The translations under genes and the position numbers were made by a program. A stretch of DNA of 64,000 bases from Thermopolyspora flexuosa (GTDB lineage: Bacteria; Actinomycetota; Actinomycetes; Streptosporangiales; Streptosporangiaceae), in contig NZ_VFPQ01000001.1 of NCBI RefSeq assembly GCF_006716785.1, forward strand, positions 1,922,001 to 1,986,000, read 5' to 3'. This document shows positions 53,763 to 59,156 of this stretch, piece by piece. Position 1 is the stretch's first letter. Each line of letters starts with the position of its first letter. The notes beneath the pieces are model-generated. The model was not told where the DNA came from and searched no databases. It saw only the letters and a program-made list of their open reading frames with translations.

Positions 53763-54281
53763 TCATCCGGACACCTCCGGCAACGCCGCCGGCGTGCCGA
53801 AGGTCCGCCTGTGGTAGACCAGCGGCGCGTCGCCGGTGGTCTCGGCGGCGACCACGTTGCCGAGCACGATGAGGTGGTCGCCGCCGTGCGCGAGACCGGC
53901 GACGGTGCAGCCGACGAAACCCGCCGACCCGGGGATGCGCGGCACCCCGGCGTGCGGCTCCCAGGCCACCCCGGCGAACTTCGCCGCGCCGCCCTTGGCC
54001 GCGAACCGCCGGGCCAGCCCCGCCTGGCCGGCGCCGAGCAGGTTGAGCCCGAACCGCCGGGTCCGGCGCACCAGCGCCAGCAGCTCGGAGGTGCGGTCGA
54101 GGGCGACGAGCACCATGGGCGGGTTCATCGACAGGGAGGCGAACGCGCTCACCGTGGTGCCGTGCGGCAGCCCGCCCTCGAGGCCGGTCATCACCGCGAC
54201 GGGCGCGCACACGGCGGCCATCGTCTCCCGGAACGCTGCGGCGACGCCGGGGTCCGCGCCGCCGCGGGCGGGGCCGGTCAC
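53763..54281 (-). CDS. Flavin reductase family protein
   Basis: A 172-residue FMN-binding split-barrel reductase of the HpaC type. FRETMAAVCAPVAVMTGLEGGLPHGTTVSAFASLSMNPPMVLVALDRTSE is the flavin-binding block, RFGLNLLGAGQAGLARRFA and a final HLIVLGNVVAAE follow. It would use NAD(P)H to supply reduced FMN to the luciferase-like monooxygenase encoded 12 bp upstream. The start is GTG at 54281; its ribosome site is weak, suggesting coupling to the preceding gene. Confidence 0.88.
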   Translation of the reverse strand: MTGPARGGADPGVAAAFRETMAAVCAPVAVMTGLEGGLPHGTTVSAFASLSMNPPMVLVALDRTSELLALVRRTRRFGLNLLGAGQAGLARRFAAKGGAAKFAGVAWEPHAGVPRIPGSAGFVGCTVAGLAHGGDHLIVLGNVVAAETTGDAPLVYHRRTFGTPAALPEVSG

Positions 54282-54293
54282 CTCGGCCGCCCG

Positions 54294-55391
54294 CTACGCG
54301 AGCACCCGCACCGGGCCGCGGCGCATCGACCGGGCCTTGGGCAGCACCTCGCGGGCGAACAGCTCCAGGCTCGCCCGCGCCTGGTCGTACGGCATGCCGC
54401 CGAACGACGGCGCGAGGGAGAGCTCGAAGTCGCCGAGCACGTCCCGGATCGCCTCGATCTGGCCGAGGATGCGCTCCGGGCTGCCGTACAGCGCGGCCGC
54501 CGCGTAGTCGTTCGCCGCCTTCTCCAGGCCGATCGAGCGGAAGTACTCGGCGTTCGCCGCGTACCGCTCGTGGCCCTTGAGCCCCTTGAAGTGCTCCCCG
54601 GCCATCTCGTAGTGCTCGACGTTCGCCATGAAGAACCGGGTGACGTACTCGAAATGCCGCTCGCGGGCGAGCTCGTCGTCCTCGTGGCAGTACATGTTCA
54701 CGCTGAGCGCGATCGGCGGCGCGGGCTCGCCGTGCTCCCGCTCGTACAGCTCCCGGTACCTGGTGAACGTCGGCATCAGGTCCGGCACCGGCTTGGTGAT
54801 GAACGACATCATCTTCGCCTTGAGCCTCGCGGCCATCGCCACCGAGTCCGGCGACCCGGCGACACAGTACCGGCGGCCGTGGAAGGTGCCGCGCGGCCGC
54901 GGCCGCAGCACCGCGCGCGGCTGCGGGTAGTACGGCCCGGCGCCCTCGATCACGCCGGTCTCCAGCGCCTCGAAGATCATCGGTGCGGCCTCGTCGAACC
55001 GGTCCCGGGTCTCCTCCAGCGGGATGCGGAACGGCACCATCTCCTTGCGGGAGAGCCCGCGGCCCACGCCGAGCAGCAGCCGCCCGCCCGAGATCGTGTC
55101 CACCATGAGCGCCTTCTCGGCGACCCGCAGCGGGTCGTTCCACGGCAGGATCACCGCGGCGGTGCCGAGCAGGATCCGCGAGGTACGGCCCGCCAGGTGG
55201 GCGAGCACGAGCAGGTTGTCGGGGCAGACGGAGTAGTCCTCGAAGTGGTGCTCGACCGCCCAGACGCTGTCGTAGCCGAGCTTGTCGGCGAGCACGGCGA
55301 TGTCGAGCTCGTTCCGGTACATCTCCTCGTCGGAGACGCCCGGCCGGAGCGTGGCGAAGCCGAGGTTGATCCCGATGTGGAGCTGCTGCAA
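54294..55391 (-). CDS. Luciferase-like flavin-dependent monooxygenase (LLM class)
   Basis: A 365-residue bacterial-luciferase-fold enzyme using reduced flavin and O2. HIGINLGFATL, YDSVWAVEHHFEDYSVCPDNLLVLAHLAGRTSRILLGTAAVILPWNDPLRVAEKALMVDTISGGRLLLGVGRG and VAGSPDSVAMAARLKAKMM are the class hallmarks. The start codon is TTG at 55391 after AAAGGCGGA. The partner reductase follows at 12 bp; a CocE-type hydrolase precedes. The pair should hydroxylate or degrade an organic substrate, presumably released by the hydrolase (inference). Confidence 0.88.
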   Translation of the reverse strand: MQQLHIGINLGFATLRPGVSDEEMYRNELDIAVLADKLGYDSVWAVEHHFEDYSVCPDNLLVLAHLAGRTSRILLGTAAVILPWNDPLRVAEKALMVDTISGGRLLLGVGRGLSRKEMVPFRIPLEETRDRFDEAAPMIFEALETGVIEGAGPYYPQPRAVLRPRPRGTFHGRRYCVAGSPDSVAMAARLKAKMMSFITKPVPDLMPTFTRYRELYEREHGEPAPPIALSVNMYCHEDDELARERHFEYVTRFFMANVEHYEMAGEHFKGLKGHERYAANAEYFRSIGLEKAANDYAAAALYGSPERILGQIEAIRDVLGDFELSLAPSFGGMPYDQARASLELFAREVLPKARSMRRGPVRVLA

Positions 55392-55460
55392 CGCTGATCC
55401 GCCTTTCTCACGGGTTCAGGTCGGAAGGCGCGCGCCCGGCGGGGGCCGCGGCGCCGGCGG

Positions 55461-57173
55461 TCAGTCCGCCGGGATCACCGGCAGCCGGATGGCGCTGGGG
55501 CGTGCGGGGCCGAAGAAGACGCGCTGGGTGGCGGTGACGAAGTCGTCCTCGGTGACCTCGCCCGCCGGTTTGCCGCTGCCGGAGTTGCGGTCGTAGCAGG
55601 GGAAGTTGGAGCTGGCGATGTCGACGCGGATGCGGTGCCCCGCCTTGAACACCTGGCTGGTCGCCCCCAGGTCGATCGTGTACTCGTACACCTCGCCCGG
55701 CACGATGGGGCTCGGGTTGTCCATGCCGTTGCGGTAGCGGGCGCGCACGATGCCGTCGGCGATGCCCATCGCCCGGCCGTCCGGGTGGACGTCGATGAGC
55801 TTGGCGGTGAAGTCGGTGTCGGCGGCCGAGGTCGCGGCGAACAGCCGTACGCTGAGCGGGCCGGTGACCTCGACGTCGTGCTCGAGCACCGGGCCGACGA
55901 AGCGCAGGATGTCGGTCCGGCCGTCGAGCACCCGCTGGTCCCGGGAGCCCGGCTGGTAGCTCAGCCCGCCGTCCGGGCTGCCCGCCATGAGGATCGCCCC
56001 GCCCACGGTCGGCACCGGGTCGTGCGGGTCGTGGACGTACTCCAGCGACCCCTCGGCGGGCATCTCGCGGCCGAGCGTGCCGTCCGGCCCGAGGTACCAG
56101 GTCTGCCAGTCGGTGCGGGCGAGCGGCCACTCGTTCTCCACCCGCCACCGGCCCGCACCCATCACGTAGATCTGCACCGGGGGCAGCGTGGTCGGGGTGC
56201 CCGCGATGCTCTCCCGGAGGAAGCGCAGCTGCTGCTCCTCCAGGCCGATCGCCTGGGCCGAGCCGTTGGCGTAGAACACCTCGCCGGTGACGCCGGACTC
56301 GTCCCCGTGCGCCCAGGGGCCGATGATCAGGTGCTGGTTGCGGGCGGTCTCCGGGTCGGCGTTCGCGACGATCGTGGTGTAGTTGTCGATCGTGCCGCGC
56401 AGGAACAGGTCGAACCATCCGCCGATGTGCAGCCCGGGCACGGCGGTGCGGGCGCGGTGCCGGGAGTAGCCGATGCGCCGCCAGTACTCCGGGTCGTTCT
56501 CCTTCTCCAGGAAGGTGCGCCAGCTCGGCAGCACGTCGCTCACCGCGGGCCGGTCGATCAGCGGCAGCGCCCGGTAGGCGGCGGGGATGTCCGCCGACAG
56601 CCGGCCCAGCGCGGCGAACCTCTCCGCCACGTCCTCGCCGCGGGCGGCCGCCTCGCCGAGCGACTGCGCGGCCTTCAACATGTGCCAGGCGAGGGACTGC
56701 CCGAGCTGGAAGGCGCCCTGCCGGTAGGCGAGCCCGTCCCGGTAGTCGTCCGGGGCGACGATCGGCACGATCGCGCGCAGCCCCTGCGGCCGGTGGCCGC
56801 TCACCGCGAGCTGGCACATGCCCAGGTAGGACATGCCGAACATGGCGACGTTCCCGTCACACCACGGCTGCTTGACCAGCCACTCGATGGTGTCGAGGCC
56901 GTCGTCGGTCTCGTTCTCGAAGGTGCGCAGCTCGCCGTCGGAGCCGCCGGTGCCGCGGCAGTACTGCACCATCACCGTGAACCCGGCGTCGAGCAGCGGC
57001 AGGATCGGGAGCGTGCGCGTCATCGGCTCGCCGTACGGGGTGCGGACGAGCAGCACCGGCCGCGGTGCGCCGTCGACGCGGTGGACGACCCCGCGGAGCC
57101 GCAACCCGTCCCGCATGGGTACCTCGACCCGCTCGAGCACGGCGGTGTCCACTCGCTGTGGCGTTCCTGCCAT
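55461..57173 (-). CDS. CocE/NonD-type (X-Pro dipeptidyl-peptidase S15) hydrolase
   Basis: A 570-residue esterase/amidase. An alpha/beta-hydrolase domain holds the nucleophile Ser in FGMSYLGMCQLA, with VQYCRGTGGSDGE near the oxyanion hole and GPWAHGDES giving the catalytic His. The C-terminal half is the jelly-roll domain (TGPLSVRLFAATSAADTDFTAKLIDVHPDG) of cocaine-esterase-like enzymes. No signal peptide is seen. ATG 57173 follows GAGAGGT. It is the first gene of the unit that includes the monooxygenase and reductase; a palindrome 80 bp upstream probably controls it. Confidence 0.9.
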   Translation of the reverse strand: MAGTPQRVDTAVLERVEVPMRDGLRLRGVVHRVDGAPRPVLLVRTPYGEPMTRTLPILPLLDAGFTVMVQYCRGTGGSDGELRTFENETDDGLDTIEWLVKQPWCDGNVAMFGMSYLGMCQLAVSGHRPQGLRAIVPIVAPDDYRDGLAYRQGAFQLGQSLAWHMLKAAQSLGEAAARGEDVAERFAALGRLSADIPAAYRALPLIDRPAVSDVLPSWRTFLEKENDPEYWRRIGYSRHRARTAVPGLHIGGWFDLFLRGTIDNYTTIVANADPETARNQHLIIGPWAHGDESGVTGEVFYANGSAQAIGLEEQQLRFLRESIAGTPTTLPPVQIYVMGAGRWRVENEWPLARTDWQTWYLGPDGTLGREMPAEGSLEYVHDPHDPVPTVGGAILMAGSPDGGLSYQPGSRDQRVLDGRTDILRFVGPVLEHDVEVTGPLSVRLFAATSAADTDFTAKLIDVHPDGRAMGIADGIVRARYRNGMDNPSPIVPGEVYEYTIDLGATSQVFKAGHRIRVDIASSNFPCYDRNSGSGKPAGEVTEDDFVTATQRVFFGPARPSAIRLPVIPAD

Positions 57174-57252
57174 GGGTGACCTCTCGCTTCCTGACTGCCG
57201 CCGTAACGGCGGCCCCTGTTCGGTACGGTACGAACGGATTTTTCCGATCTAA

Positions 57253-57268
57253 GTCTCATTTGTGAGAC
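57253..57268 (-). promoter_or_regulatory. Palindromic operator upstream of the CocE-type gene
   Basis: GTCTCATTTGTGAGAC has 6-bp inverted arms around TTTG, in an A/T-rich patch 80 bp before the hydrolase start. On the minus strand TTAGAT, directly downstream, could be the -10 while the expected -35 is poor, so an activator may be needed. The nearby AcoR-like regulator is the first candidate. Confidence 0.5.
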
Positions 57269-57387
57269 ACCCCGGCGGGCGTTACGGCAGGCCCCGTCGC
57301 GGGGTGGCGCCACCCGTGACATCCGTCACGGCCACGTCCGGAGATCCGGCACTGGGAGCGGGCCGGGCGCGGCATGACGATGGGCGC

Positions 57388-58554
57388 ATGAGACCGAGGA
57401 CCGTGTCCGAGCGCGCGCCCGGGCCGCCCTCGCCGAGCCGGCTGCGCCGGGTGCGCGCGTTCGCCTGCGGGTTCGTCGCCTTCCTCGGCTACCCGGCGGC
57501 CGAGCTCGCCGGGCTGGGCCTGCCCGGCCCGGTGGCGGTGGCCGCGGCGGCCGGGCTGGTCGCGTTCGGCGGCCTGTTCGTCTGGGTGATCTGGCACAAC
57601 GTGCCCCGCCCGCGCACCGCGGCCACGCCGTACGCGCTGGCGGCGATGGCGGCGCTCGCCGTGGCCCTGCAGTTCGCGCTGCGCGGGACCTGGCTGATCA
57701 CCGCGTCGTTCTACCTGGTCACGCTGGCCGTCCTGGTGCTGCCGCCGCGCCGCTGGCCGCTCGCCCTGGCCGCGTTCTGGGCCGGGCACGTCGCGCTCGC
57801 CGTCGGCGTGCTGGGCCGGCCGTTCGGGGCCGCCGCGCTCACCGGGGCCGGCATCGCCCTGTACGGCGCGGCCTGCGCCTCCCTGCACGGGCTGATGTGG
57901 CTGGCCACCCGGCTGCGCGCCGCCCGGGCCGAGCTCGCCCGCGCCGCGATCACCGCCGAGCGGCTGCGCATCGCCCGCGACCTGCACGACACGCTCGGCC
58001 GGCGGCTCACCGAGGTGGTGCTGCGGTCGGAGCTGGCGGCCCGGCTCGTGGACCGGGAGCCGGAGCGCGCCGCGGCCGAGATGCGCGAGGTGGGCCGCGG
58101 CGCCCGGGAACTGCTCGCCGAGGTGCGCGCGACCGTGTCCGGCTACCGCGAGGCCGACCTCGACAGCGAGCTCGCCACCGCGCGCGAGATCGCCCGCGCC
58201 GCGGGCATCACGCTCACCGTGAGCCTGCCGCCGGACCCGCCGCCGCCCTCGGTGGCCGCCGTCGCCGCCTGGGTGGTGCGCGAGGGCGTCACGAACGTGC
58301 TGCGGCACAGCGTCGCGCGGGCCTGCGCGGTCACCGTCGCGGAGGAGGATGGAGGTGGGCCGGGCGGCGGACGCGGCTACACGGTGACCGTGGCCGACGA
58401 CGGGCCCGCGCTCGGCGGCAGGCCGGTGGCCGAGCCCGGCGCCGGGCTGACCGGGCTCACCGAACGGCTGGCCGCGGCAGGCGGCGAGCTGTCGATCGAG
58501 GTGGACAAGGAGTGGTTCATGCTGCGCGCCCGCATCCCGGAGGTGGCGGCGTGA
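57388..58554 (+). CDS. Two-component sensor histidine kinase (DesK/NarL-type)
   Basis: A 388-residue kinase. Five or six membrane helices occupy residues about 25-180. The phosphoacceptor His is in ERLRIARDLHDTLGRRLTEVVLRSELAARL (HisKA_3 dimerisation). The ATPase part has VREGVTNVLRHS (N-box), DDGPALGG (a shortened G1 box) and GLTGLTERLAAAGGELSIE. The membrane sensor with little extracellular loop resembles DesK, which senses lipid-bilayer state; the actual signal is unknown. The stop overlaps the response regulator start (GTGA). Confidence 0.9.
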   Translation: MRPRTVSERAPGPPSPSRLRRVRAFACGFVAFLGYPAAELAGLGLPGPVAVAAAAGLVAFGGLFVWVIWHNVPRPRTAATPYALAAMAALAVALQFALRGTWLITASFYLVTLAVLVLPPRRWPLALAAFWAGHVALAVGVLGRPFGAAALTGAGIALYGAACASLHGLMWLATRLRAARAELARAAITAERLRIARDLHDTLGRRLTEVVLRSELAARLVDREPERAAAEMREVGRGARELLAEVRATVSGYREADLDSELATAREIARAAGITLTVSLPPDPPPPSVAAVAAWVVREGVTNVLRHSVARACAVTVAEEDGGGPGGGRGYTVTVADDGPALGGRPVAEPGAGLTGLTERLAAAGGELSIEVDKEWFMLRARIPEVAA

Positions 58555-59156
58555 TCCGGGTGCTGCTCGCCGAGGACCAGCACCTGGTGCGCGGTGCGCT
58601 GGCGGCCCTGCTGTCGCTGGAGAAGGACATCACCGTGGTGGCGGGGGTGGCCGACGGGGCGGCGGCGGTGCGGGCGGCGGCCGAGCACCGGCCGGACGTG
58701 GTGTTGCTCGACATCGAGATGCCGGTGATGGACGGCATCACCGCGACCGCCCGGGTGCGCGAGGCGGTCCCGACCGCGAAGGTGCTCATCCTCACCACGT
58801 TCGGGCGGCCCGGCTACCTGCGGCGCGCGATGGACGCCGGGGCGTCGGGGTTCGTGGTCAAGGACGCCGAGCCGGAACGGCTCGCCGACGCGGTGCGCCG
58901 GGTGCACGCCGGGCAGATCGTGGTCGACCCCGAGCTCGCCGTGGCCTCCCTGGAGCGGGGCCGCAACCCGCTCACCGAGCGGGAACGGGAGGTGCTGCGC
59001 GCCGCCGAGGACGGCGCCACCGTCGCCGACGTGGCCCGGCGGCTGCACCTGTCGGAGGGCACGGTGCGCAACCACCTGTCCAGCGCGATCGGCAAGACCG
59101 GTGCCCGCAACCGGGCCGAGGCGGCGCGCACGGCCCGGGAGAACGGCTGGCTCTGA
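58551..59156 (+). CDS. NarL/FixJ-family response regulator
   Basis: A 201-residue regulator. The receiver domain has the acid pair in LLAEDQHLVRGAL, the phospho-Asp in VVLLDIEMPVMDG and Thr/Lys in LTTFG and VVKDAEP. The C-terminal LuxR-type helix-turn-helix is LTEREREVLRAAEDGATVADVARRLHLSEGTVRNHLSSAIGKTGARNRAEA. It is phosphorylated by the coupled kinase. The partnership resembles DesKR; target genes are not apparent nearby. Confidence 0.92.
   Translation: MIRVLLAEDQHLVRGALAALLSLEKDITVVAGVADGAAAVRAAAEHRPDVVLLDIEMPVMDGITATARVREAVPTAKVLILTTFGRPGYLRRAMDAGASGFVVKDAEPERLADAVRRVHAGQIVVDPELAVASLERGRNPLTEREREVLRAAEDGATVADVARRLHLSEGTVRNHLSSAIGKTGARNRAEAARTARENGWL

Follow-up and report, generated by a model that had tools for sequence, protein, structure and literature searches.

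The window analysed here, a 64,000 nt stretch of the Thermopolyspora flexuosa genome (contig NZ_VFPQ01000001.1, positions 1,922,001 to 1,986,000), contains a run of four genes arranged head to tail on the minus strand, with a palindromic operator upstream of the first. This gene (57173-55461) encodes a 570 aa esterase of the CocE/NonD type; it is followed by genes for a 365 aa luciferase-like (LLM) flavin monooxygenase with a TTG start (55391-54294), a 172 aa flavin reductase with a GTG start (54281-53763), predicted to supply reduced flavin mononucleotide (FMNH2), and a 598 aa regulator resembling AcoR, MimR and DhaR (53500-51704), which has a Fis-type helix-turn-helix (HTH) and a degenerate AAA+ domain. 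The operator, GTCTCA-N4-TGAGAC, is the predicted binding site of this regulator and is conserved before orthologous modules; it lies at 57253-57268 on the minus strand as GTCTCATTTGTGAGAC, an exact inverted repeat with 6 bp arms and a 4 bp spacer. On the same strand, a -10-like hexamer, TACCGT (57225-57230), starts 22 bp past the operator, and the predicted transcription start is at about 57218. An earlier note on this DNA had described the hydrolase, monooxygenase and reductase, together with the regulator, as lying near a palindromic operator, which the profile matches of the genes and the exact palindrome confirm; the span that it gave, 53763-57268, leaves out the regulator gene, which belongs to the unit.

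The esterase matches TIGR00976 over its full length (residues 18-568), scoring 419.9 bits against a cut-off of 66.3. It also aligns with cocaine esterase (347.8 bits over residues 12-567; PDB 4p08, 1ju3 and others), bringing GMSYLG, GWFDLF, GPWAHG and the tyrosine of RTPYGE into register with the motifs that we take to hold the catalytic Ser, Asp and His and the oxyanion Tyr. The context of the gene differs from that of cocaine esterase, and a cocaine-like substrate is not implied; with cocaine esterases as the closest solved relatives and the active-site motifs aligned, the hydrolysis of an amide, previously offered as an alternative to that of an ester, found no support. The monooxygenase matches PF00296 (187 bits), and its predicted structure, with a predicted local distance difference test score (pLDDT) of 90.1, is a luciferase TIM barrel. 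By VIA-align Z score, the model lies closest to bacterial luciferases and RslO1 (37.0 to 8cbb, 36.7 to 1luc and 36.6 to 7bip), with F420 enzymes and the type II Baeyer-Villiger monooxygenase (BVMO) 3,6-DKCMO scoring lower (29.6 to 4uwm). Bacterial luciferase (1luc), RslO1 (7bip) and 3,6-DKCMO (4uwm) share with the LLM protein both the fold and a reductase partner, at 20-30% identity, and an EHHF stretch is invariant in 39 aligned LLM sequences. The partner reductase expected of a group C flavin monooxygenase is encoded in the window by the adjacent gene (PF01613, 119.1 bits).

In the regulator, Pfam recognises HTH_8 (54.1 bits) and AAA_lid_14 (51.4 bits), the domains of an AcoR/MimR/DhaR-like protein, and lists no sigma54-activator domain at E 0.001; the best NCBIfam match is DhaR, with 97.9 bits under a cut-off of 551. 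No other match to the regulator was found in its own genome at E 0.001. The predicted structure is of modest quality (pLDDT 71.5, predicted template modelling score (pTM) 0.40), so the domain assignments rest on sequence; Foldseek places this model, at that pTM, near ZraR, NtrX and the N-terminal half of DhaR. The DhaR(N) structure that the model resembles was solved with DhaK/DhaL. All 13 aligned orthologues retain the helix motif SRAT[LIV]YR and a Walker A-like GE-x-G-x-GK; all 13 lack GAFTGA, the best six-letter match being 3-4 of 6, and none has an hhhDE motif after Walker A. A Sigma54_DBD profile matched nothing in the T. flexuosa genome at E 0.001, compared with matches in four of 14 control genomes. 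Both hallmarks of a sigma54-dependent bacterial enhancer-binding protein (bEBP), the GAFTGA loop and a sigma54 in the genome, were accordingly not detected, although by its domains the regulator is a descendant of this family. The orthologue in a metagenome-assembled genome (MAG) of Frankia (L034 4598-5782, minus strand) is a single open frame of 394 aa that lacks the AAA+ part altogether, with 60% identity over the sensor half and 67% over the HTH.

Precedents for such a change of partner exist: as excerpted, PMC3162934 states that the sigma54 system is lacking in Actinobacteria, that species with no sigma54 of their own nevertheless have sigma54 activators entered for them in databases, and that TyrR, Escherichia coli DhaR and R. 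capsulatus HupR, proteins of the same enhancer-binding descent with a defective GAFTGA, depend on sigma70. These three differ from the present regulator in their ligands, operators and targets. None of them is known to have lost its AAA+ part, unlike the Frankia MAG orthologue, which offers a natural test case for a regulator working without the AAA+ domain.

The exact palindrome GTCTCA-N4-TGAGAC, GTCTCANNNNTGAGAC, occurs just twice in the genome of 5.77 Mb; when up to two mismatches are allowed it occurs at 53 places, against 17 for a backward control. When combined with a -10-like hexamer (3 or 4 bp spacer, 20-23 bp gap), the site described here is the only one in the genome. The second exact copy (G000:C1:1781382-1781419; L015 5383-5420), which has a one-mismatch copy 22 bp further on, lies upstream of ABC transporter ATPase genes that by eye resemble dppD/dppF. 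It was set aside as a regulon member, as it has a spaced -10 in neither direction.

Among the 80 loci kept for comparison, 20 carry relatives of the LLM gene with 56-98% identity (L019-L038). The regulator is found on 13 of these and the CocE hydrolase on 11 (three of the loci being cut by the end of the stretch), which bears out the expectation of conserved synteny at LLM identities of at least 56%. This does not extend to all four genes as a conserved set: the flavin reductase is present on only four of the 20 loci, one of them from the same genus. Its patchy presence fits the rishirilide cluster, in which, according to an excerpt of PMC7221717, loss of a reductase gene is tolerated and is put down to a host reductase. 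The order CocE-LLM-regulator is found in Prauserella and three Amycolatopsis; in Amycolatopsis sacchari, cocE is split over two frames (L021 6341-7977), through either a frameshift or a sequencing error. The Frankia MAG has CocE-LLM-SDR (the short-chain dehydrogenase/reductase, SDR, being assigned by eye), with the regulator on the other strand; Actinomadura has LLM-CocE, with the regulator further on; two Streptosporangiaceae MAGs have LLM-CocE; and three Geodermatophilus have LLM-regulator. In two Arthrobacter and Zafaria the order is CocE, ABC transporter genes, LLM, regulator, SDR, reductase, SnoaL-like and SDR. A further 60 distant LLM loci (L039-L098, 44-52% identity) had no CocE, regulator or reductase match above 60 bits on the stretches examined, and were not used in assigning function because the other three genes were not found there. 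The module is regarded as patchy because the regulator was found at E 1e-70 in only two of 394 genomes of the class, and the LLM protein at E 1e-60 in five of 150 genomes of the family, its own genome included in each count; it may move between lineages. No paper on a cluster of CocE, luciferase-like monooxygenase and flavin reductase genes was found in the open-licence PMC literature.

The operator accompanies these modules in several forms. GTCTCA-N4-TGAGAC precedes the first module gene in Prauserella, the three Amycolatopsis and Actinomadura, and one-mismatch versions were found in the two Streptosporangiaceae MAGs, whilst the Frankia MAG has GTCGCA-N4-TGCGAC, a symmetric change in both arms. 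Geodermatophilus (one of the three with a GTCTCG left arm), Arthrobacter and Zafaria have a 3 bp spacer. Arthrobacter sp. SF27, A. hankyongi and Zafaria each have a further copy upstream of CocE, at a distance of 7-10 kb from the one before the LLM gene. Across 15 genomes the arms are conserved and the letters of the spacer variable; on the regulator tree, two changes are needed to account for the N3 and N4 spacers, N4 being found in Actinomadura and in Pseudonocardiaceae plus the T. flexuosa genome. The core GTCTC-N5/6-GAGAC was present in all 12 of the upstream regions of 300 bp chosen for testing (L034, L036 and L037 fell outside this set), against 40 of 24,000 shuffled ones. The operator is, on this comparison, conserved beyond chance.

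Its presence also follows that of the regulator, which supports the tie between the two suggested in the earlier note: an exact, variant or 3 bp-spacer operator lies before the module in all 14 genomes with a regulator orthologue, and in none of six that have the LLM gene and in which no regulator orthologue was found (Fisher 2.6e-5, uncorrected for relatedness). The 14 comprise T. flexuosa, 12 genomes reached through the loci and the Frankia MAG; L037, where the regulator was not searched for, and L019/G057, where the contig ends inside CocE, stand outside the count. Orthologues were taken at 39% identity or more, and the best matches in the six negatives reached 34%, or were absent at E 1e-20. 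In one positive genome (G527), the operator is present with the regulator in two pieces on another contig. Where the regulator is missing from the locus (six cases), the closest operator-like sequence differs at 2-3 of 10 positions. In Pseudonocardia humida, the -10-like CGTAGCGT is kept upstream of position 8001 of L025 and the operator is not; only regulator paralogues (34% identity or less) were found in this genome, and the operator has possibly decayed.

The distance from the operator to the -10 is similarly constrained. At 18 of 18 sites from 15 genomes, the sole TANNNT within 75 bp starts 21 (six sites), 22 (11 sites) or 23 bp (one site) past the operator; when the downstream 60 bp were shuffled 5,000 times, the mean number of spaced TANNNT was 0.56 and the maximum four. 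The -35 was rightly suspected of being weak: at best, 3 of 6 positions agree with TTGACA here, and the mean of the best matches across the 18 related promoters is 1.9 of 6 (spacers of 16-19 bp). If the -10 is taken as -12 to -7, the midpoint of the operator falls at -41 to -43, a placement like that of a class II activator site. A class II activator bound at such a position stands in for the -35. All 18 promoters show the features of a sigma70-type promoter of this class: a fixed operator-to-hexamer distance, overlap with the -35 position and no -35 itself.

In Bacillus, AcoR acts with sigma54 to activate acetoin genes, and the two AcoR sites compared here, CAGTTTGAGAC and GACAAAACGAGACAGATGTCTCATTTTGTC, are presumably both from that genus. 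The first is the aco upstream activating sequence (Ali 2001) and the second a reported AcoR site (Peng 2020), both as quoted in an excerpt of PMC12648084. In these quoted forms, each contains TGAGAC or the complementary GTCTCA as a half-site, in one instance in the form CGAGAC, so the half-site itself is not new, and its being shared supports the link between this regulator family and the palindrome. The Bacillus protein belongs to the same family and, on the sites quoted, uses the same half-site; it differs in that the second of the quoted sites has the half-sites in reversed order, whilst the system described here has neither GAFTGA nor a detectable sigma54.

The pattern of operator, N20-23 and TANNNT was then searched for in the 394 genomes of the class, giving 13 sites in 11 genomes, compared with five for the reversed pattern. 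The 12 sites outside T. flexuosa represent 11 palindromes, one of which is read both ways. Six of the 12 stand immediately upstream of, and are oriented towards, an AcoR/MimR-like gene whose product is 25-33% identical to the regulator by tblastn (L126, L128, L130, L132, L133 and L134). Three of these six are divergent from a di-iron hydroxylase gene, in two cases with a reductase gene next to it; one of the three loci also encodes a chaperonin, an amidohydrolase and a zinc alcohol dehydrogenase, and a seventh site stands before that dehydrogenase. Two other sites of the six adjoin an amidohydrolase. Judged by its genes, the combination of di-iron hydroxylase and AcoR/MimR-like regulator is the mim/prm setting. 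According to PMC4428276, PMC8394569 and PMC7176365, the MimR/prm (mim) systems of Mycobacterium and Rhodococcus have a Fis-type regulator gene adjoining the monooxygenase operon, as here, and the architecture is already noted in print, since PMC4428276 reports a conserved palindrome over the prmA -35 beside a Fis-family gene. The MimR-like loci found in the search carry the same palindrome as the CocE/LLM module. However, MimR/prm targets a di-iron propane-acetone monooxygenase, whereas the run in the window has no mim/prm di-iron genes and the predicted targets are CocE and an LLM flavin monooxygenase; the regulators are only 25-33% identical, the N4 spacer occurs in part of the CocE/LLM family, and the regulator gene here lies downstream in the same run instead of divergently.

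Taken together, these observations suggest, with a probability that we put at about 0.7, that the AcoR/MimR-like regulator switches on an esterase and flavin-monooxygenase pathway through GTCTCA-N3/4-TGAGAC, centred at about position -42 in a promoter with a -10 and no -35. The grounds for this are the gene identities, synteny, operator conservation, co-occurrence with the regulator, spacing to the -10, lack of GAFTGA and lack of a detectable sigma54. A dimer of the regulator would bind the palindrome and, once triggered by a small ligand, perhaps a ketone or an alcohol, would act as a class II activator by recruiting the housekeeping (sigma70-type) polymerase. Expression of the regulator's own gene, which closes the run, is probably under the same control. 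Co-regulation of esterase and monooxygenase under a real operator appears well supported by the comparison. Separate regulation of these two enzymes, which the earlier note had named as a point that would tell against a common pathway, does occur to the extent that they form separate units in the three Arthrobacter and Zafaria genomes, but each unit has its own copy of the operator, which speaks for co-regulation.

An alternative function for the same site would be repression, with the regulator lying over the -35 position and blocking polymerase until a ligand removes it. The position of the operator would suit this equally, and TyrR, which shares the descent and the lack of GAFTGA, can repress (TyrR/PhhR, in the excerpt of PMC3162934). 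Repression is nonetheless improbable, given that none of the 18 promoters has the good -35 usually needed by an unaided promoter, and that a constant distance to the -10, here 21-23 bp, is a requirement of a class II activator. That the palindrome instead belongs to another regulator, for example of the TetR type, or to the histidine kinase/response regulator gene pair that diverges from the cocE unit (57262-59156), is considerably less probable still. The site does lie between divergent units, and palindromes of the same form occur with no AcoR-like gene nearby; but the kinase/response regulator pair, rejected as a part of the unit, had no match at any of L019-L038, the operator tracks the AcoR-like gene even where this is on another contig (G527), and the AcoR sites quoted in PMC12648084 share the half-site. 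Near-palindromes are common enough in the genome, as the excess over the backward control attests (53 places against 17), for a chance palindrome in an ordinary gene neighbourhood to be considered. This was rejected and is given almost no weight, in view of arms conserved in 15 genomes, the fixed distance to the -10, the co-occurrence with the regulator and the rarity of the motif in shuffled sequence.

Several points weigh against activation by the regulator as proposed. The proposal is built on sequence comparison, and a palindrome over the -35 position would suit a repressor too. Because the loci are related, neither the 18 sites nor the 14 genomes count as independent observations. The regulator may also have been missed in the six negatives, which include four MAGs of 2.8-3.5 Mb and one other assembly that is incomplete. 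The second of the quoted AcoR sites, GACAAAACGAGACAGATGTCTCATTTTGTC, has its half-sites in the opposite order (GAGAC then GTCTC). For the 12 sites of the class-wide search, the -10 spacing is fixed by the construction of the pattern, leaving the AcoR neighbour alone as independent evidence, and six of the 12 are not directly before an AcoR-like gene: one shares a cluster with such a gene, and five have none in the stretches read. A second palindrome by a MimR-like gene (L130 3735) and the T. flexuosa copy at C1:1781382 lack a spaced -10 whichever way they are read, so a palindrome by itself is not enough to recognise a unit. With regard to the pathway, the three Geodermatophilus have the LLM gene, regulator and operator with no close CocE (42-43% identity, or none at E 1e-100), and Baeyer-Villiger chemistry is unsupported by any test, the closest structures to the LLM model being luciferases and RslO1 and the type II BVMO scoring lower.

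The reactions themselves can be ordered in two ways. In the order that we tentatively prefer, FMNH2 from the reductase would feed the LLM enzyme, which would convert a ketone to an ester or lactone by a Baeyer-Villiger type oxygenation; the CocE esterase would then hydrolyse this product, and the resulting compounds would feed central metabolism. This preference derives from the neighbouring genes, as related clusters contain SDR and acyl-CoA ligase genes (by Pfam) and alcohol and aldehyde dehydrogenase genes (by eye), and from the link between mim enzymes and acetone made in PMC7176365 and PMC8394569. The neighbours would fit a route in which an alcohol gives a ketone, the ketone an ester, and the ester an acid and an alcohol. 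RslO1 was dropped as evidence for a Baeyer-Villiger reaction, the enzyme once proposed for that step being RslO9, according to excerpts of PMC7221717 and PMC12903851. Hydrolysis first, with CocE cleaving an ester and the LLM enzyme oxygenating the released acid or alcohol, seems unlikely, though less so than repression. In its favour, the CocE gene leads the run in the window and likewise in Prauserella, Amycolatopsis and the Frankia MAG, and cocaine esterase, the closest solved relative, cleaves an external ester. Yet LLM precedes CocE in Actinomadura and the two Streptosporangiaceae MAGs, gene order says little on reaction order, and in Geodermatophilus the LLM gene and the regulator are retained with no close CocE alongside them. 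The ketone-first order fits the neighbours at least as well, and other oxygenations account for the remaining probability.

A wider proposal, to which as a whole we give slightly less than an even chance, is that sigma54-less actinobacteria turned an AcoR/MimR-type branch of bEBPs into class II activators that have a single operator code in common, GTCTCA-N3/4-TGAGAC and 21-23 bp to the -10, serving different catabolic monooxygenases. The old AcoR half-site would have been kept and moved onto the -35, and the AAA+ motor would be vestigial, with one lineage having discarded it to leave a sensor and HTH. The code would itself vary, through the symmetric two-arm change in this AAA-less lineage and a 1 bp spacer shift between others, and the unit in the window would be the esterase/flavin-monooxygenase branch of the regulon family, probably concerned with ketone catabolism. 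With the predicted operator and its spacing rule, the targets of sigma54-less actinobacterial regulators could be found by sequence, and the rule suggests how proteins derived from sigma54 activators can work after the loss of their partner. It would also join an uncharacterised esterase and flavin monooxygenase into one regulated pathway, for which an inducer could be screened.

Of the other genes around these modules, a FUSC-like neighbour in the window was rejected as part of the unit, its only match being at L019, on a contig from the same genus. Directly 3' of the module in two Arthrobacter are genes for DhaK, DhaL, a class II aldolase and a HAD protein (L031 13931-17059 with L137 96-1091; L029 with L138). 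A triose product, hinted at by the DhaK/DhaL, aldolase and phosphatase genes near these two clusters, was considered, but no substrate was proposed from them because Zafaria shares only a DhaK/DhaL-like gene. Finally, just 3' of the predicted cocE transcription start lies a near-perfect palindrome, GCCGCCGTAACGGCGGC (57197-57213), which may be a hairpin or a second operator.

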